A stretch of 64,000 nucleotides of DNA from Chloroflexi bacterium HGW-Chloroflexi-2. GTDB taxonomy: Bacteria > Chloroflexota > Anaerolineae > Anaerolineales > Anaerolineaceae. The stretch is taken from assembly GCA_002840735.1 (NCBI GenBank), contig PHBY01000001.1, positions 186,001 through 250,000 of the forward strand. Direction: 5' to 3'. A program made the translations under genes and the position numbers. The notes below the pieces were generated by a model. That model ran no database searches, was not told where the DNA came from, and saw nothing but the letters and a program-made list of their open reading frames with translations. Shown piece after piece: positions 1,698 through 9,858 of this stretch (its first letter is position 1; each line of letters opens with the position of its first letter).

Positions 1698-3602
1698 CTA
1701 TTTACGAGTCGGACGTAATTTACGAAAATCTCCATCACGAATTGTAGTTCCTTTTGCATCCAGGTGTTCCAGAAAGGCTAAAGCATATTTTCTGGATGTT
1801 TGAAACTTATCTCTGAATTCAGCTACGGTCAGAGAGCCAGAGAGTTCAATCTTTTCAATAACCCAATTTTCCATTTTTTGGTAATTTTCACTTAAGAAAG
1901 CCACATCATTTCCGACTGAAATGAGCATATTTTCAGCCTGTAAATAATTCATGATTTCCTCACCATATAACTCATTGCTCTCTTTTATACTGGGTGTTGA
2001 AAAAGGTGAATCCGAAAATGCTTTGATTATAGAAAGTTTAGCTTTTACCTGAGAAGGGTTAAGATTGGGAGCATAATCCTTCAAGCGGATAAAATTTCCA
2101 TGTAACTCGACAAAATTAATCTCCTGAAATATATTTAGAACGGCGATGAACACAGCTTGCTCCAATTTCAGCTTACTTTTTAGCTCCTCCTTAGGTATGC
2201 CAGCTCGTAAGTTGAACTGGTTATGATAATTCTCCAACAGCAGGGTAGTTTTATTTTTCTTGTCATTAAACCAGATCGACGAACAAATCAATATATTTGG
2301 TTTTTGAAATACATCCCCATTTTCCAATTGAAAAATCTGTTTTTCTTCTACGAGATTTTTCCAGAAATCTTTGATTACAGATGACTCTAATTTTGCTTTT
2401 TTACTAACAGTTTCAAAAGAACCGAACCCAACATCCTGAATTGCCTGCAGAAAAATTTCATCCGGGGTACCTTCTAAATATGCAACAAGTTGTTTAATCA
2501 CTTCCTGTGAATATCTTTTATGCCTTCGGGGAGGGTTAGGATTAACAATCATTCCTCCTCCAATGGTTTCTCCGGGAGACGGAATACGGATGATAAATCG
2601 ATCACCTCGAACACCAACAATTGGTATTACTGGTTCAATTTGCACCCATCCATTTTCTCCTGGTTTGATCTCATCTTTTCCCAAAACGCGAATTCGGGAT
2701 AATACCTCTGAAGCACCAATAAATAACTTTACAGTCTGATTATGTTTTATTGAGAAGTTTGAAGAAGATAGTATTCTTAAACTTGCATCAAATCGTTGTG
2801 TGGGCTGATATTTGTTCACACTTGCCAGAACCTGGCCACGTTGAATCTCATCAACATTGATTCCTGAGAGGTTAACCGCTGTTCTACTTCCCGGAGAAGC
2901 AATTTTTTCATTCTTTTTGTGTGTTTGCAATCCTCGGATCCGAACTTTGTTCCCGTTTGGTAATAATTCTACTTCCTGACCAACTTGCAAACTCCCATCT
3001 AAAAGTGTTCCTGTCACGATTGTTCCAAAACCTGTGATTGAGAAAACCCTATCAATTGGAAGTCTTGCTCGTCCAAAGTCAGGTTTTGGATCAACTGTCG
3101 CTAATAATTCTTGTAATGTATGAATTAATTGGTCAATTCCTGCTTTTGTGTGTGCTGAAACTCGTATTAAATTTGCATTTTCAAGAATTGTGTTTTTTGT
3201 TGCATCTCGAATATCCATTTCCACCAGATCAAGCCAGTCAGGATCATCAATCAAATCAATTTTTGTCAGAACGATAATCCCGTTTTTCACCTGCAATAAA
3301 TCCAAAATTGCCAGGTGTTCTTTTGTCTGTGGCATCACCCCTTCATCAGCAGCTATGACGAACAGGGCTGCGTCAATTCCCCCTACACCAGACAGCATGT
3401 TCTCTATAAAATCTCGATGACCTGGAACATCAACAATTCCTAATTCTTCTCCATTGGGTAATGTAAGCCAGGCAAATCCCAGATCAATTGTCATTTGCCG
3501 TAATTTTTCTTCCTTGAGACGATCTGGATGCATACCGGTAAGGGCACTAATTAATGTCGATTTCCCATGGTCAACATGGCCTGCAGTCCCAATGACATAC
3601 AT
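1698..3602 (-). CDS. selB: Selenocysteine-specific elongation factor SelB
   Basis: A 634-residue translational GTPase that delivers Sec-tRNA to UGA codons carrying a SECIS element. The G domain starts GTAGHVDHGKST (P-loop, residues 6-16), followed by DVPGHRDFIENM and TKIDLID. EF-Tu-like beta-barrel domains follow, then a C-terminal winged-helix array ending TSRKYALAFLEHLDAKGTT, the SelB-type SECIS-binding end. The length matches bacterial SelB (about 615-640 aa). The gene starts 3 nt after the coiled-coil gene. selA is 57 kb away in the same window, so the organism probably makes selenoproteins. No selC tRNA or selD is seen. Confidence 0.95.
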   Translation of the reverse strand: MYVIGTAGHVDHGKSTLISALTGMHPDRLKEEKLRQMTIDLGFAWLTLPNGEELGIVDVPGHRDFIENMLSGVGGIDAALFVIAADEGVMPQTKEHLAILDLLQVKNGIIVLTKIDLIDDPDWLDLVEMDIRDATKNTILENANLIRVSAHTKAGIDQLIHTLQELLATVDPKPDFGRARLPIDRVFSITGFGTIVTGTLLDGSLQVGQEVELLPNGNKVRIRGLQTHKKNEKIASPGSRTAVNLSGINVDEIQRGQVLASVNKYQPTQRFDASLRILSSSNFSIKHNQTVKLFIGASEVLSRIRVLGKDEIKPGENGWVQIEPVIPIVGVRGDRFIIRIPSPGETIGGGMIVNPNPPRRHKRYSQEVIKQLVAYLEGTPDEIFLQAIQDVGFGSFETVSKKAKLESSVIKDFWKNLVEEKQIFQLENGDVFQKPNILICSSIWFNDKKNKTTLLLENYHNQFNLRAGIPKEELKSKLKLEQAVFIAVLNIFQEINFVELHGNFIRLKDYAPNLNPSQVKAKLSIIKAFSDSPFSTPSIKESNELYGEEIMNYLQAENMLISVGNDVAFLSENYQKMENWVIEKIELSGSLTVAEFRDKFQTSRKYALAFLEHLDAKGTTIRDGDFRKLRPTRK

Positions 3603-3605
3603 TAC

Positions 3606-4787
3606 TTATGATCTCTTCGTGTCAAAATTATCAGTAAAATCTGCATTTACCTCTTTGATAAATTTAAATAAAGATTGCAATGATCTCTCATTCGATTGTA
3701 CAATGAGATTGGTTAGGTCATTTAGCTCTTGAGAAATCTCTTCTAATTGCAATAACCTGTTTTCAAATTTTTCAAAGATACGATTGGTTTCCTGATATTG
3801 TTCATCTTGAGAGATCATATAATTTGACCAACGTTTTTGATCATCGGCCTTGAATGAAATCCAATCCTGTCGCATGCGATCTTCTACCAGACGTTGCATT
3901 TCGGTAATTTCATTTATTCGTCGTTCAAATTTCTGCGTTATCTCTTCAAAAGCAGCTTGCGAATGTCGTATTGCCCTCTGTGTTGCATCCAAAGTTTGCA
4001 ATTGTTCATCGAGATTAATAGCCTGGTTACTGATCACCTCAAATCGTGATTGCCATTCTTTCCAGACCCGATCTCGTTCTACCTGTAACATATTATTTTT
4101 TTCAATAAAAGCTACCTGGGATTGTTTCCGTTCAGTTTCAGAACTTAATATTTCATTTTGACGCATTTCTATTTTTCGTAAATTTTCAGTCGCTAAATCG
4201 ATTTTCCCTCTTTGCTCTTCAATCCTTTTGCGGGTTGAAGAAATTTCACCCTGTAAATCAAGGATCCTTTTTGAATCCTGACGAACATTTTCCTCTAGAA
4301 TCTTATGGGAACGGTGGTATTCATCATCAGATCGTTTAATCTCTAAAATCTTTTTATCAAATTCACCGATTAACTTGATTAACCGGTGTTCTTCTTCTTC
4401 ACGTGCTTTAATGTCTTTTTTCATTTCTGGCAAAACTTCCATAGCTTTGCGAACATTAGCGATTGAGGCATTCAATGATTCCTGATCAGCTAACCTGATT
4501 TTTTCAATTTCTCTATCTTTTTCAATTCTTTGTTTTTCAATGCTTTCAACCGCTCTGGTATATTCAACCCGAATTTGGGAAATTGCAGCATCAATTGTTT
4601 CAAACCTGGATGAGATTGTTTTTAATCGATTTAACTCGTTTGAAATTTCACGGATTTCTTGAAGAAGCGAAGTATTGTTTCCTTCAACTTTTCGTAATCG
4701 ATCATCTAAAGACGCAATGATTAACTTATCTTTTCTGCGTTCTTCGTCTAACCATTCTACACGCTTGAGTAATTGTTCAAAATCCAT
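3606..4787 (-). CDS. Long coiled-coil protein of unknown function
   Basis: I do not recognise a family. The 393 residues are almost continuously charged heptads rich in Glu, Lys, Arg, Gln and Ile (for example the segments beginning RVEWLDEERRKDK and EIREISNELNRL). There is no signal peptide, membrane segment or nucleotide-binding motif. The last 60 residues look like a second helical bundle. A GGAG ribosome-binding site precedes the ATG. The gene lies 3 nt before selB and after the complex-I-like genes, so it is probably transcribed with selB. A cytoplasmic scaffold or structural role is possible but unsupported. Confidence 0.75.
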   Translation of the reverse strand: MDFEQLLKRVEWLDEERRKDKLIIASLDDRLRKVEGNNTSLLQEIREISNELNRLKTISSRFETIDAAISQIRVEYTRAVESIEKQRIEKDREIEKIRLADQESLNASIANVRKAMEVLPEMKKDIKAREEEEHRLIKLIGEFDKKILEIKRSDDEYHRSHKILEENVRQDSKRILDLQGEISSTRKRIEEQRGKIDLATENLRKIEMRQNEILSSETERKQSQVAFIEKNNMLQVERDRVWKEWQSRFEVISNQAINLDEQLQTLDATQRAIRHSQAAFEEITQKFERRINEITEMQRLVEDRMRQDWISFKADDQKRWSNYMISQDEQYQETNRIFEKFENRLLQLEEISQELNDLTNLIVQSNERSLQSLFKFIKEVNADFTDNFDTKRS

Positions 4788-4828: not shown

Positions 4829-4863
4829 ATTATACCATTCAGAAAAATTGTTTACGTTTTCTA
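4829..4863 (-). promoter_or_regulatory. Tentative promoter of the coiled-coil-selB unit with an rplU-type motif
   Basis: TATAAT (4829-4834) lies about 40 nt before the coiled-coil ATG. No good -35 hexamer is present, but 15 nt upstream is TAGAAAACGTAAAC (4850-4863). That is close to the GTAGAAACGTAAAC repeats at the rplU promoter. The motif includes the TAG stop of the upstream gene, so chance cannot be excluded. Confidence 0.4.
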
Positions 4864-6258
4864 TTTCAAATTAGCAAAGGCAGATAATATTTCCAAAAAT
4901 GGATTCAAGACTACACTCGGGAAAATTCCCATGATGATTAATAAAACTATACCAATTGAAAAATATATCTTTTGTAATAATGATTCGGATTCGATTTCGT
5001 TTTCATTATGACGGGTAGAGAAGATGATTGCCAAAAACCTGAATCCAGCAACAAATAATCCAAAAAGGCCAATGGATACAAAAATTAATGGAGTAATTGT
5101 TAGCTGACTCAATCCAATTAATATGGGTAATTTTGTTGGGAAGCCAGGTAATAATGGAAGACCGGAAAAAGTGAACCATCCAACGAGAAATCCAAGCACG
5201 GCAAATGTAGATTGATAATACACACCGTGAAATGAATCAAAATCTATATTTAATTCTTTATTTTTCCATATCGAAATCGCTAATGTACAGATCGCAATTC
5301 CAATAATTCTTGGAATCATTATTAATATGTAGGATTGCCACCCAATAACCTGGTTCAAACTTATAGCTAATAAAGAAAATCCGATTTCGACCATTACCGC
5401 ATATCCGACTAATCTTGTTAATTCACGTTGAAATGCAGCAAAAAGCCCTCCTAAAACAATCATTACAATACCTAAAATCTGGCATATTGTTAAAAGTAGT
5501 GTCTCTTCTCTCAGCCAGCTAAAAGTATTAAAAAAATCCAGGAAAAAAATGAATATAGTTGTAGGAATCATACTGAAAATGAATCCAGCAGAATATGGAT
5601 GACCGTCTCTGGCCAATAATGGTACCCAGGTGTGAAATGGAAAAATAGCCAGCCACAAACCTAAGCCAATGGCTAACAAAACTCCTGCTTGATAATAAGC
5701 AGCCTGACTATCCACACTGGTTGGTGCGACTTCGAATCCCCAACCAGCGAATAAAATAAATGGAACTGCTAGTGTTTGAAATACCAGATATCTAATAATA
5801 CCCTGCTTGACTGGTTGACCTCGCTGGAAAAATATTGGGATACTGATGAGAACTGCAATTTCTATAATTAAGGCTGCATATAAAAAAGGTTGTACAGACA
5901 ATGCAGCAACGAACAGAGTAATTATTACGAGTACATTAGGAACAAAGAAACTATTGGTCCCGGAAATTCTGGAGCCGAAAATCCAAAATGCGCACATTGA
6001 ATACAAAAGTGCAACAATCAAGCGTTCACTATCTGTTATAACAAAATTTCTTCCAAGTATCGTAAATGTAGATGAGATTTCCAATGATATGGGACCAAGA
6101 GGAAATACACTTTCTATTTTAAAAGTTAATGCTAATAAAGCTAAAAACGCACTGATTCCACCACCGATTATTAAAGTTAATAACCGATTTCCCCTTATGA
6201 TGAAGAGCATTAAAGAAAAAATCAATGGTATGCCAATCCAGATTAATGGGGCGCTCAA
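4861..6258 (-). CDS. Complex-I/Mrp-like proton-translocating membrane subunit (NuoN/M-like)
   Basis: A 465-residue polytopic membrane protein with about 14 hydrophobic helices. The segment FPFHTWVPLLARDGHPYSAG matches the signature after TM7 of the NuoL/M/N and MrpA/D family. A TM5 glutamate is present (E133 in LIIEIAVL). The position of the essential TM7 lysine, just before PFH, appears to be Trp (W202). The start is TTG at 6258, overlapping the upstream stop as TTGA and preceded by AAGGAG. It is the last of three linked membrane genes. No NADH-, hydrogen- or formate-oxidising module is nearby, so its partner and ion are unknown. Confidence 0.8.
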   Translation of the reverse strand: MSAPLIWIGIPLIFSLMLFIIRGNRLLTLIIGGGISAFLALLALTFKIESVFPLGPISLEISSTFTILGRNFVITDSERLIVALLYSMCAFWIFGSRISGTNSFFVPNVLVIITLFVAALSVQPFLYAALIIEIAVLISIPIFFQRGQPVKQGIIRYLVFQTLAVPFILFAGWGFEVAPTSVDSQAAYYQAGVLLAIGLGLWLAIFPFHTWVPLLARDGHPYSAGFIFSMIPTTIFIFFLDFFNTFSWLREETLLLTICQILGIVMIVLGGLFAAFQRELTRLVGYAVMVEIGFSLLAISLNQVIGWQSYILIMIPRIIGIAICTLAISIWKNKELNIDFDSFHGVYYQSTFAVLGFLVGWFTFSGLPLLPGFPTKLPILIGLSQLTITPLIFVSIGLFGLFVAGFRFLAIIFSTRHNENEIESESLLQKIYFSIGIVLLIIMGIFPSVVLNPFLEILSAFANLK

Positions 6259-6833
6259 ACGATTTCTCCTTCTTCTTGTTGAATAAAAAGGACTCCAACC
6301 AAAGCGATACCTAATGTAATAATAACCAGAAATCCTGCCACTAAAACTGATTGTTCTACTCCAGCATAAAGAACCTCAAAGCCGGAGAAAGCTGTTAAAA
6401 GTCCAAATATAATTCGTACCGGTCTGGTGGACATCCCGATTTGCAGAATGCCCATAATGATAAGAAGCACGCCTCCCCATAACAGTGAATCAGGTATTGG
6501 TAATTTTATTTTTAAACTTTGCATTATGGAAAAACTAAAAATCCAGATAATCATGACGATAACAAATTTAAATCTTTGTTCTACTTTATTGTCTTCAACC
6601 AATAATTCGGAATCTTCCTTAACTGCTGAGCCAAGGATCGCACCAGCCATCCAGCCAGCGATTAATTTAATGACTGCCAGGCCTGTCGGCCAGACTTGCA
6701 GGACCATCCAAAAGACCGACACATATATAGCAGCCATTGCGAGGATATTCCAACGCCATTTTTTTTTAATGAACAGAATTAAAGAAGACAATCCTGCTAA
6801 TAAAACCGGGAGAATATCAATGAGGGAATTCAT
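6255..6833 (-). CDS. Small membrane protein, possible NuoJ/NuoK-like subunit
   Basis: This 192-residue protein has about six hydrophobic segments. The C-terminal half (QIGMSTRPVRIIFGLLTAFSG onward) has the size and spacing of a NuoK/MrpC-like three-helix unit. The N-terminal half has an acidic loop near residues 70-85. I see no decisive motif, so the assignment leans on its place between two NuoL/M/N-like genes, with a 4-nt overlap downstream and a 1-nt gap upstream. Annotating it as a plain hypothetical membrane protein would also be fair. Confidence 0.55.
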   Translation of the reverse strand: MNSLIDILPVLLAGLSSLILFIKKKWRWNILAMAAIYVSVFWMVLQVWPTGLAVIKLIAGWMAGAILGSAVKEDSELLVEDNKVEQRFKFVIVMIIWIFSFSIMQSLKIKLPIPDSLLWGGVLLIIMGILQIGMSTRPVRIIFGLLTAFSGFEVLYAGVEQSVLVAGFLVIITLGIALVGVLFIQQEEGEIV

Positions 6834-6834
6834 T

Positions 6835-8427
6835 TTAAGTTAAATCTCCTGAGATAATCAGGGTAATCAGCATCACGAGAAATACAATGACCCATAGGAT
6901 ACCCCCCTGACCTTCAAGGATATTCGTAAACACATTAACAATACGTTGGAACAATCCAAGAAAAGACCAAATAAGATCATAAACCCATCGAAAACTTAAG
7001 AATTTGATAATATAATTTCCGATTGGTTTAAAGATTCTTTGCAAAAATTCTGTATATTCTGAATCTCTTAAAAATTTTCGAATCGAAAAAAGAATGATCA
7101 GAGGTAAGACAAACGCAACGATACTTGCAAACAATATTCCTGATGTATACCAATTTAGGTCACTGATAAGGAAAATCAACCATTGCGATAGGATTAATAT
7201 GAATAATCCCAATGGATAGGTTAACCAAATCCATTTTTCTTTTTGAGATAACAAAATATCAGCAATGGTTGCATGACGAAGATAACCAAGAATGATGATA
7301 GAGACTGAAAGAATTAATAAAATATTTCGGATAATTCCACCAGAGGTAATTAGCCCTTGCCAACCAATCGCTGATGGTGTGAAAGGCAAACCCGTGATAC
7401 CAATAACAGCAAGTAAAGGAATAACAGTTAATTTTCTACCTCTTGCAGAAAACAAAAATAAAACAGACCCACTTAAAATTAAAGCTAAAGTCCAGGCAAG
7501 GGTAGCTATTTGATTGTCATTAATGGAAGAATAAATTGCCAGGCCAGCCATTGTCACAATCCAATAAGGGCGTCCCTCCAATTCAGATGACGATCCATAC
7601 CACATAATAGCTCCAAATAATATACCCACAACCGTCAAAGTAAGTAAGATGCTCTGAACTCTTTCATCAAAGGTGCCCATCGGTAACCGCAATAGCACAA
7701 CCATTGAGGTTACAACACTTACCATCCTTATCGAATTACCCAAACCACGTCGAATCGGTGAGCCACTCACAAATGGCAAGTTGAATGGAATAACGCCTAA
7801 TCTCAAACCTACCGCAATTAATATGATAAAACCTATGGAATTTGCTTCCTGACCAATTCTTAGTGGAGTACCCTGTTCATAACTGATTAATAAACCAAAA
7901 ACAAAAATGGACAAACCTAGAATTTTTACAGCGAACGAAACAACGATTTCATTAATTTTTTGGTCAGAAATCACATTACGAATAAGAATTATAAATTCGA
8001 TTATATCGACCAATGCCCAAACTAAAAGAATTGTAATTATGCTACTGCTTAATACCGCCAGAAATCCAACAGTATAAACGAGATATAAACCTGACCAAAT
8101 CACTGGAGAAGGAATCTCATCCAATCGAGAAGAATCAGTAATTATTACAGCAGTCTGTACAGCACACAAAGCAAGCAATAATGGCCATGATACTGAATCT
8201 AATTGAAGGGTGATCCCCCGTTGAGAGATTTCACCAATAGGAAACCAATCTGGAAATTTAATTTGCAACGGGTAAAGCCACCGTAAACCTAAGATAATCC
8301 CCCAATTCGTGAGAGATAATATTGATGCGATAAGCCATACACGACCGATATTCGCTTTAATTCTCGTTAGTACCAGAATAAGTACTGCTGCAAATAAATT
8401 AAAACCAATGGGTATAAGGGTTATCAT
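6835..8427 (-). CDS. Complex-I-like membrane subunit with divergent proton-path residues
   Basis: A 530-residue polytopic protein with 14 or more helices and the general layout of the NuoL/M/N family. The normally conserved lysine plus PFH block after TM7 reads GLRLGVIPFNLPF, so Lys is replaced by Arg (R209) and His by Asn (N216). The TM5 acidic position reads ALVDIIEF, with D141 and E144 as candidates. It is the first of the three-gene membrane set and overlaps or abuts the next gene. The family is probable; a working antiporter channel is not shown. Confidence 0.7.
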   Translation of the reverse strand: MITLIPIGFNLFAAVLILVLTRIKANIGRVWLIASILSLTNWGIILGLRWLYPLQIKFPDWFPIGEISQRGITLQLDSVSWPLLLALCAVQTAVIITDSSRLDEIPSPVIWSGLYLVYTVGFLAVLSSSIITILLVWALVDIIEFIILIRNVISDQKINEIVVSFAVKILGLSIFVFGLLISYEQGTPLRIGQEANSIGFIILIAVGLRLGVIPFNLPFVSGSPIRRGLGNSIRMVSVVTSMVVLLRLPMGTFDERVQSILLTLTVVGILFGAIMWYGSSSELEGRPYWIVTMAGLAIYSSINDNQIATLAWTLALILSGSVLFLFSARGRKLTVIPLLAVIGITGLPFTPSAIGWQGLITSGGIIRNILLILSVSIIILGYLRHATIADILLSQKEKWIWLTYPLGLFILILSQWLIFLISDLNWYTSGILFASIVAFVLPLIILFSIRKFLRDSEYTEFLQRIFKPIGNYIIKFLSFRWVYDLIWSFLGLFQRIVNVFTNILEGQGGILWVIVFLVMLITLIISGDLT

Positions 8428-8436
8428 ACGATAAAA

Positions 8437-9858
8437 TCAAATAACCCTGTTAAATGGTTTACGTCGCATGAATTTCCCATTTCCCGCTTTTCCTAACCAC
8501 TTTCTACCATCCACCAGACAATTTCCTCTTAAGAAAACTTTTTCAGGAAAACCTTCTAACTCCCATCCCTCATAGAGATTGTAATCTGTGCGCTGGTGAG
8601 ACCATTCGCGTCCATATGTTATTTTCATCTGCGGGTTCCAGATCACTATATCAGCGTCACTACCTGGTTGAATTACTCCTTTTTGTGGGTAGAGACCAAA
8701 AATTTTGGCAGGATTGGTGGACGTAAGGGCAACAAATTGATGCGCTGTGATACGGCCCTTTACCACACCTTCTGTCCAGAATATGGGCAATCGATCACCT
8801 ACTCCAGGCAAACCGTTTGGAATTTTGGTAAAGTCATCTTTCCCTAATTCCTTGCCAGGTATCATTACTTCCTTTCCTTCATAAAGAATAGGTTGTGTTC
8901 CATCAAAGAAAAATGGGCAATGGTCTGTTCCCAACACCTGGATCGTTCCGTCCATAATCCCCTGCCACAACCGTTCATTATCTTCCTCAAAACGCATAGG
9001 AGGAGAACAAATCCATTTGGCTCCATCTGCCTGCTTTAGGTTTTCGACTGTAAAAAACAAGTATTGGGGACATGTCTCTCCCATAACCTGAATTCCTAAA
9101 TCCCGTCCATAAGCTAATTGATCAACCTCCCCCCCGGCGTTCATATGAACAATATATAAAGGCGCATCCGTGTGAGCAGAAAGTGAAATTCCTCTGGAGA
9201 CAGCCTCTACAGCACCCCAGGCAGGCCTTGTATGCGCATGCCATTCAGGGGTTGTATAACCGGCTGTTAATGCTTCCTGAACAAGGATTTCTATGATGTC
9301 ACCGTTTTCTGCGTGAAGCATGGTTAAAAATCCATGTTTTTTTGCTATGCGCATTACTTTAAAAATATCAGCATCCTGCAACCTCAAAGTGGAGTTATAA
9401 GCCGTAAATACTTTTAATGAGGTTACCCCTATATCAATGAGCGCAGGAATCTGTTCAGCAACCTCTGAATTGAATATGGAAATATTCATATGAAAACCAT
9501 AATCAATTGCTGCTTTCGGTTCAGATTTTTTTAACCAATCTGAAATATCTTTTTTCAGATCATTTCCAGTTTGAGGAACAAAATCGAGAACAGTTGTTGT
9601 GCCACCAAATGCTGCTGCTTTATGTCCGGTGTAATGATCATCCGAAGAAACCGTATTAAACATGGGAAGATCAAAATGAGTGTGCGCATCAATTCCACCA
9701 GGAAGAATTAATTTCTCATGAGCGTCTACAATTTGATCAATACCTGTGGTTGATAAATTTATTCCTATTTGGACAATTTTTTCACCATCTATTAGAATAT
9801 CTGCTTTGCATTCATCAGATGCAGAAATTATTGTTCCACCCCGAATAATTGTTTTCAT
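8437..9858 (-). CDS. hydA: Dihydropyrimidinase / hydantoinase
   Basis: A 473-residue cyclic amidohydrolase that opens dihydropyrimidine or hydantoin rings to N-carbamoyl amino acids. Visible metal-site elements are GGIDAHTHFDLP (HxH), the carbamylated lysine in TSLKVFTAY, His in LHAENGD, His in YIVHMNAGGEV and the aspartate in GTDHCPFF. Length and order are those of bacterial D-hydantoinases. It lies at the downstream end of the purine island. Hydantoinases (HyuA/HydA) are also part of the E. coli yge-type cluster, which supports a ureide-hydrolysing role over general pyrimidine use. The exact substrate is not determined. Confidence 0.92.
   Translation of the reverse strand: MKTIIRGGTIISASDECKADILIDGEKIVQIGINLSTTGIDQIVDAHEKLILPGGIDAHTHFDLPMFNTVSSDDHYTGHKAAAFGGTTTVLDFVPQTGNDLKKDISDWLKKSEPKAAIDYGFHMNISIFNSEVAEQIPALIDIGVTSLKVFTAYNSTLRLQDADIFKVMRIAKKHGFLTMLHAENGDIIEILVQEALTAGYTTPEWHAHTRPAWGAVEAVSRGISLSAHTDAPLYIVHMNAGGEVDQLAYGRDLGIQVMGETCPQYLFFTVENLKQADGAKWICSPPMRFEEDNERLWQGIMDGTIQVLGTDHCPFFFDGTQPILYEGKEVMIPGKELGKDDFTKIPNGLPGVGDRLPIFWTEGVVKGRITAHQFVALTSTNPAKIFGLYPQKGVIQPGSDADIVIWNPQMKITYGREWSHQRTDYNLYEGWELEGFPEKVFLRGNCLVDGRKWLGKAGNGKFMRRKPFNRVI

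Follow-up and report, generated by a model that had tools for sequence, protein, structure and literature searches.

We examined three adjacent genes in a 64,000-nucleotide stretch of DNA from Chloroflexi bacterium HGW-Chloroflexi-2, order Anaerolineales (assembly GCA_002840735.1, contig PHBY01000001.1, positions 186,001 to 250,000; hereafter the window). Their products, L530, K192 and N465, belong to the superfamily of complex I, group-4 [NiFe] hydrogenases and Mrp antiporters, and very probably represent a related membrane arm that acts without redox drive. The explanation that best accounts for the evidence as a whole, and which we favor with modest confidence, is a stand-alone, redox-free arm that has lost its hydrogenase and whose ion path has been rewired. 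The genes of this trio, with coordinates in the window, are as follows.

6835..8427, minus strand: L530, 530 amino acids (aa), NuoL/MrpA-N-like membrane subunit
6255..6833, minus strand: K192, 192 aa, small membrane subunit, MbhD+NuoK/MrpC-like
4861..6258, minus strand: N465, 465 aa, TTG start, NuoN/MrpD-like subunit

The genes form a tight operon, with a gap of 1 nucleotide (nt) between L530 and K192 and with the TTG start of N465 overlapping the TGA stop codon of K192. As the arm lacks an electron-transfer part and the usual proton-carrying residues, it provides a natural setting in which to see what an arm of this kind does alone. This natural experiment comprises an arm that is under purifying selection throughout the order and lacks both an electron-transfer part and the key lysines, together with relatives that have intact or decaying hydrogenase subunits. 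The trio would also offer a minimal three-subunit system for structural and flux studies and would be a test case for the interconversion of redox pumps and antiporters. It was not described in any title or abstract surfacing in a literature search of open-licence papers at the title and abstract level.

Conservation of the trio and its independence from Nuo and hydrogenase

Orthologues of L530, K192 and N465 were identified in nearly all of the 61 genomes of the order that were searched, and the gene order L-K-N is fixed. Three genomes (G039, G046, G054) lack all three genes together; the trio is lost as one unit. No electron-input genes were detected among all open reading frames (ORFs) of 70 trio loci (922 kb), and the positive controls were recovered in loci of other classes that carry a NuoD-like gene (D). 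Neither NuoH nor NuoB/C/D/I is found beside the trio in these 70 loci, a NuoH/HyfC-type anchor gave no match in the trio loci, and no large subunit with two CxxC pairs lies beside the trio in the order or occurs anywhere in the five trio-bearing genomes named below. Gene order in ~40 loci presents the trio as a unit of three, and no additional conserved family of small membrane genes adjoins it (mrpB/E/F/G hidden Markov models were not run individually). An earlier note on this DNA had recognized an orphan three-gene complex-I-like module, a description borne out by conservation across the order and by the complete lack of electron-input genes in the 70 loci; the finding is both wider and older than that note could show.

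The source genome contains 12 matches to PF00361, which include two Nuo-type operons, one group-4-type hydrogenase operon and one Mrp-type operon; its separate antiporter operon sits on contig C2; the trio is therefore not a missing piece of these sets. NuoH (PF00146) and NuoD-type (PF00346) proteins are absent from five trio-bearing genomes (G012, G021, G022, G023, G035), and a NuoB-type protein is absent from G023 and G012. Each of the five has one PF00361 protein, which in G012, where the trio contig is cut, is a different protein; G023 is a complete single contig, 99% complete. Since the trio is kept in genomes without NuoH and NuoD, it is not part of Nuo, and the proposal in the earlier note that it belongs to an unusual Nuo is refuted.

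Predicted folds and replaced residues of the three subunits

The large subunits are assigned with different kinds of evidence. N465 matches Proton_antipo_M (PF00361, E=4e-13), its closest single solved structure is Thermus Nqo14, and a profile of its family detects chains of NuoN, NuoM, MbhH and MrpD with E-values down to 3e-32; on these profile matches it is predicted to have an antiporter-like fold. L530 gave no Pfam or NCBIfam match. Its AlphaFold model (mean predicted local distance difference test score, pLDDT, 85; predicted template modelling score, pTM, 0.86) matches NuoL chains (Foldseek E ~1e-10, TM-score ~0.7), and a profile of L530 homologues from other classes matches MrpA/NuoL at 6e-37, with MrpA first. 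The predicted fold of L530 is that of an antiporter-like (NuoL) subunit.

Both large subunits have lost the lysine of transmembrane helix 7 (TM7). The alignment of N465 (GLGFKAALAPFHFW) with Thermus Nqo14 (GLGLWLAIFPFHTW) is gapless at TM7, so that the Lys reads Trp and the His is kept. This position, Trp202, is Trp in 18 relatives, Leu in 16 and one of five single other residues in the remainder, with Lys in 0/39. Twenty further, more distant N relatives likewise lack it (0/20, for a total of 0/59 across the phylum), having Arg where a hydrogenase gene is present and a hydrophobic residue (or Gly) in the others. The Lys of TM8 is absent from N465 and from all 39 relatives. Two canonical features are retained: Glu133 of TM5 (Glu in 30/39) and Lys376 of TM12 (Lys/Arg in 29/39, with Arg in most relatives).

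In L530 the TM7 segment reads AVGLRLGVIPFN, with Lys replaced by Arg and His by Asn. The Arg, at position 209, is found in 48/49 relatives of the family alignment. The Asn at position 216 is a local variant that is not fixed in the family (His in 20 and Asn in 11 of 49). The position of the canonical NuoL TM5 Glu, which follows a conserved Trp, is Ala138 in L530, is Ala/Thr in most relatives and is Glu in none of the 49; Asp141, three residues or approximately one helical turn further on, is invariant (49/49). Family column counts also indicate that L530 lacks the Lys of TM8 and that of TM12. Arg234 in TM8 is conserved in most relatives, and the long C-terminal helices carry a conserved EGxGGxLW motif.

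Two of the three changes listed in the earlier note, the TM7 Arg of L530 and the non-Lys TM7 residue of N465 (Trp in this genome), are thus fixed in the family. The third, Asn for His in L530, holds for this genome and does not extend to the family. The losses go beyond that list: both large subunits also lack the Lys of TM8, and L530 the Lys of TM12 and the Glu of TM5. In canonical antiporter subunits from this genome the Lys persists within K-x4-P[FL][HQY], 8/11 of them fitting the simple pattern; together with the family-wide counts this establishes that the changes do not result from an alignment offset. Comparison with a close relative gave ratios of nonsynonymous to synonymous substitution (dN/dS) of ~0.16 for L530 and ~0.08 for K192. 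The trio is under purifying selection, and in view of these ratios the residue changes are more than drift. Conserved charges include D141, R209 and mostly R234 in L530, K56 and E160 in K192, and R70, R156 and R407 in N465.

K192 is the most difficult subunit to place. Its AlphaFold model is confident (pLDDT 93), and nothing significant was obtained in Pfam, NCBIfam or Foldseek against PDB; single-sequence hhalign comparisons with HyfE, NuoK and NuoJ were uninformative. A family profile relates the N-terminal half to MbhD (DUF4040, the C-terminal part of MrpA), although weakly (6cfw_D, E=0.0046), and the C-terminal half resembles MrpC/NuoK. A second family profile gives similarly weak matches of the two halves to MbhD (0.04) and MrpC-type 6u8y_G (0.06). 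These profile matches, weak as they are, suggest that K192 may be built like a HyfE-like fusion. In the weak MbhD alignment (E=0.0046), Lys56 coincides with the Na+-site Glu (MrpA E706 / MbhD E69), the Na+-binding residue of these proteins (PMC7419157), and is Lys in 43/49 K proteins. Glu153 and Glu160 are also conserved.

Relatives with hydrogenase-like genes and the origin of the trio

Phylum-wide profile searches within Chloroflexota identified related operons in other classes, of which 20 loci were examined in detail. K lies directly upstream of N in 19/20 of these loci. In families f35, f45, f71 and f92 the K, N and L-type genes follow a Complex1_49kDa (PF00346) gene, D, and in some precede a PF01058 gene, B. 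The earlier note had named a full set of electron-input genes beside the operon in relatives as grounds for refutation; this is half true in other classes, in which the trio is bordered by a hydrogenase-like NuoD gene and in some cases by a NuoB gene, and is never the case within the order. Among PDB structures, those closest to the L176 D protein are Mbh alpha (6e-33) and formate hydrogenlyase HycE (2.5e-31), ahead of the complex I 49 kDa subunit. All four Ni-Fe cysteines (both CxxC pairs) are present in L171, L175, L176 and L177, part of them are lost in L170, L172 and L178, and all are lost in L179. The NuoB-like gene follows the trio in L171, L175, L176 and L179, and its product keeps four Cys in three of these loci (L171, L176 and L179); that of L175 is degenerate and has lost them.

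Four loci (L171, L175, L176, L177) have a compact D-L-K-N-B set resembling a small group-4-type [NiFe] hydrogenase in which NuoH, NuoC and NuoI are unrecognizable; L177 is without B. This set is possibly a hydrogenase subtype of its own. In f35 and f71 the gene for a conserved hydrophobic protein of ~272 aa comes after the D-bearing operons, at the site expected for NuoH; the positions recorded for this protein are as follows.

L170, 6697-7524: ~272-aa hydrophobic protein
L171, 6392-7207: ~272-aa hydrophobic protein
L176, 9690-10499: ~272-aa hydrophobic protein
L177, 6593-7408: ~272-aa hydrophobic protein
L178, 9076-9933: ~272-aa hydrophobic protein

A NuoH remnant was considered for this protein and rejected, the hhalign scores to HyfC/NuoH being only marginally above those of controls. 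At locus L174 the L subunit keeps the TM5 Glu, TM7 Lys and TM12 Lys and the N subunit is already without the TM7 Lys, a pattern which suggests that N changed first. The match at L189 (f34) was set aside as a trio, as an elongation factor P gene takes the place of K.

In a tree of N proteins the canonical NuoN, NuoM, Hyf and Mrp subunits form one group (100/100). A clade of its own (100/97) holds the D-bearing forms, and another (100/97) unites the trio-only forms of Anaerolineae and the single-gene match L189. D-bearing and trio-only forms constitute one family outside the canonical subunits, and L173 and L174, both without D, branch near the canonical group. The L-subunit tree has long branches and was used solely for the monophyly of the N proteins.

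Our reading of these data is that the trio rather likely arose by loss of the hydrogenase from a group-4-type complex. The trio would once have served a small [NiFe] group-4-type hydrogenase of Chloroflexota, with the order D-L-K-N-B, as its membrane arm; D and B would then have been lost and the L-K-N arm retained and rewired. Loss is the better reading because the D-L-K-N-B operons show ongoing decay of D and B. Several observations weigh against the favored explanation as a whole: NuoH is recognizable in none of the D-bearing operons, the ~272-aa protein has no match in Pfam, NCBIfam or PDB, and the assignment of K192 is based on weak profile matches. As to the direction, presence and absence alone would fit one acquisition of D and B within one clade, as opposed to at least three losses. 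In the competing scenario the trio is the core of an Mrp-like antiporter (MrpA-N, MrpD, and MrpC joined by the C-terminal part of MrpA) that was never redox-linked, with D and B recruited once in a Chloroflexia-like clade and now decaying. That a single gain requires fewer steps than several losses speaks for such a core, as do the L-K-N order, which equals mrpA-C-D, the MrpA-first match of the L profile and the position of the D-less L173 and L174 near the canonical outgroup. However, by gene order the operon does not include MrpB/E/F/G, D stands on one flank and B on the other with decay being all that is visible, and K192 has Lys at the Na+-site Glu of MrpA/MbhD in the weak alignment; on balance we consider an Mrp-like origin somewhat unlikely.

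Possible functions, comparison with known systems and neighboring genes

Isolated complex I antiporter modules (Nqo12/Nqo13) conduct protons, and conduction is blocked where the middle or terminal Lys is replaced (PMC11496545). L530 is missing both the middle and the terminal Lys, and N465 the middle one. These losses, together with Lys56 of K192 at the Na+ site of a weak alignment, make canonical H+ pumping or Na+/H+ exchange unlikely, and transport through the canonical proton path is correspondingly improbable. Whether the trio is still an ion transporter of any kind is, in our assessment from sequence, evenly balanced. In the favored explanation L530, K192 and N465 would form one membrane complex, an antiporter-like arm without a redox arm, in which an ion (H+, a different cation or an anion) would be moved via L530 by a secondary, non-redox mechanism; the invariant Asp141-Arg209 pair could act as a gate, and N465 and K192 would be mostly lateral partners of L530. 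The fullest version of this proposal, a redox-free transporter in which the hydrogenase was cut off a group-4-type complex and the proton wire replaced by an Arg/Asp-based path, on which the whole order depends and whose intact, decaying and lost hydrogenase stages are alive in sister classes, we put forward only tentatively. A repurposed channel, also suggested in the earlier note, is a possible reading.

The main functional rival is that the trio no longer transports anything and acts in the membrane as a scaffold or sensor, possibly serving the neighboring coiled-coil protein CC393 or another soluble partner. Loss of the canonical path residues, rapid sequence divergence at constant size and the conserved proximity of CC393 would all agree with such a role, but the charges D141, R209, K56 and E160 are invariant or nearly so despite very divergent sequences, and CC393 lies away from the trio in several families; we regard a scaffold as a minority possibility that is rather unlikely. 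Less probable again is ordinary proton (or Na+/H+) antiport with Arg replacing Lys. In its favor, the Glu of TM5 is kept in 30/39 N465 relatives and Lys or Arg in TM12 in 29/39, and L530 is basic at TM7 and retains an acidic side chain in TM5; against it, N465 relatives are without the TM8 Lys throughout and have Trp/Leu at TM7, L530 is without the TM12 Lys, and isolated modules stop conducting when such Lys are replaced (PMC11496545). It is very improbable that the trio serves as an accessory arm for complex I of its own genome or for a group-4 hydrogenase encoded elsewhere in it: NuoH-containing complexes do occur in most genomes of the order, and a group-4-type operon lies ~55 kb off in the same genome, but five genomes hold the trio without NuoH and NuoD, and the other complexes have L/M/N subunits of their own with the Lys intact.

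Of the known systems, group-4 [NiFe] hydrogenases (Mbh, Hyf/Hyc, Ech) resemble the trio in having L-K-N subunits that belong to one superfamily with its own, a gene order like that of hyfD-E-F and, in relatives from other classes, an Mbh alpha/HycE-like large subunit and a NuoB-like small subunit. The trio differs from them in having no adjoining hydrogenase genes in Anaerolineales, in the unrecognizable NuoH/HyfC of all operons of the trio family, and in the family-wide loss of the TM7 Lys of N. The Mrp antiporter (MrpA-G) is likewise redox-free and has MrpA-N-, MrpC- and MrpD-like parts in the same order, so that the suggestion of an Mrp-like variant in the earlier note is partly supported, by gene order and subunit types; on the other side, by gene order the operon does not include MrpB/E/F/G, and the Na+-site Glu aligns, if weakly, with Lys in K192. 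Unlike Mrp, the trio also lacks TM5 Glu/TM7 Lys pairs in both large subunits and has lost proton-path Lys residues. With the membrane arm of complex I (NuoJKLMN) it has in common the predicted NuoL fold of L530 and the NuoN-like N465, whereas it has two antiporter-like subunits, neither with a TM7 Lys, changed residues, no NuoH, no peripheral arm and a gene content independent of Nuo. The DAB/MpsAB inorganic-carbon system (NuoL-like DabB plus DabA) is also a complex-I-type membrane protein without redox partners, but has one membrane subunit in place of three; a role of this type was rejected because DabA (PF10070) is absent from the nine genomes tested (0/9).

The genes surrounding the trio are conserved to varying degrees. 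A scan for promoters and terminators gave hits at chance level only. Neighbors of the trio in the window, kept in many but not all families, are listed below.

8437..9858, minus strand: D-hydantoinase family amidohydrolase, upstream of the trio on the same strand with a 9 nt gap
3606..4787, minus strand: CC393, coiled-coil protein, downstream of the trio
1698-3602: SelB gene, next to the CC393 gene

The hydantoinase gene adjoins the trio in 23 of ~40 loci, and its product is not thought to be a component of the complex. CC393 adjoins the trio in most loci, is not adjacent to it in several families and is located elsewhere where the trio has moved; it is a possible but unproven partner. SelB and CC393 stand side by side in most genomes of the order, and this pair seems to be its own unit.

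Related genes were also observed near or apart from the trio. Locus L084 (genome G000, contig C7, ~129-136 kb) is an operon resembling those of group-4-type hydrogenases, in which the RVCGICSH / DPCFSC motifs of the large subunit are intact; ~55 kb separate it from the trio of the same genome. In family f16 of the same class, L184 has K and N with a sugar transferase gene in place of L, representing a further reduced K-N pair; L was not seen in the ORF table of L181 and L182 either. Finally, family f9 contains an extra large antiporter-like gene (784-798 aa; L060, 202-2595, and L069, 16787-19138) at most ~10 kb from the trio.

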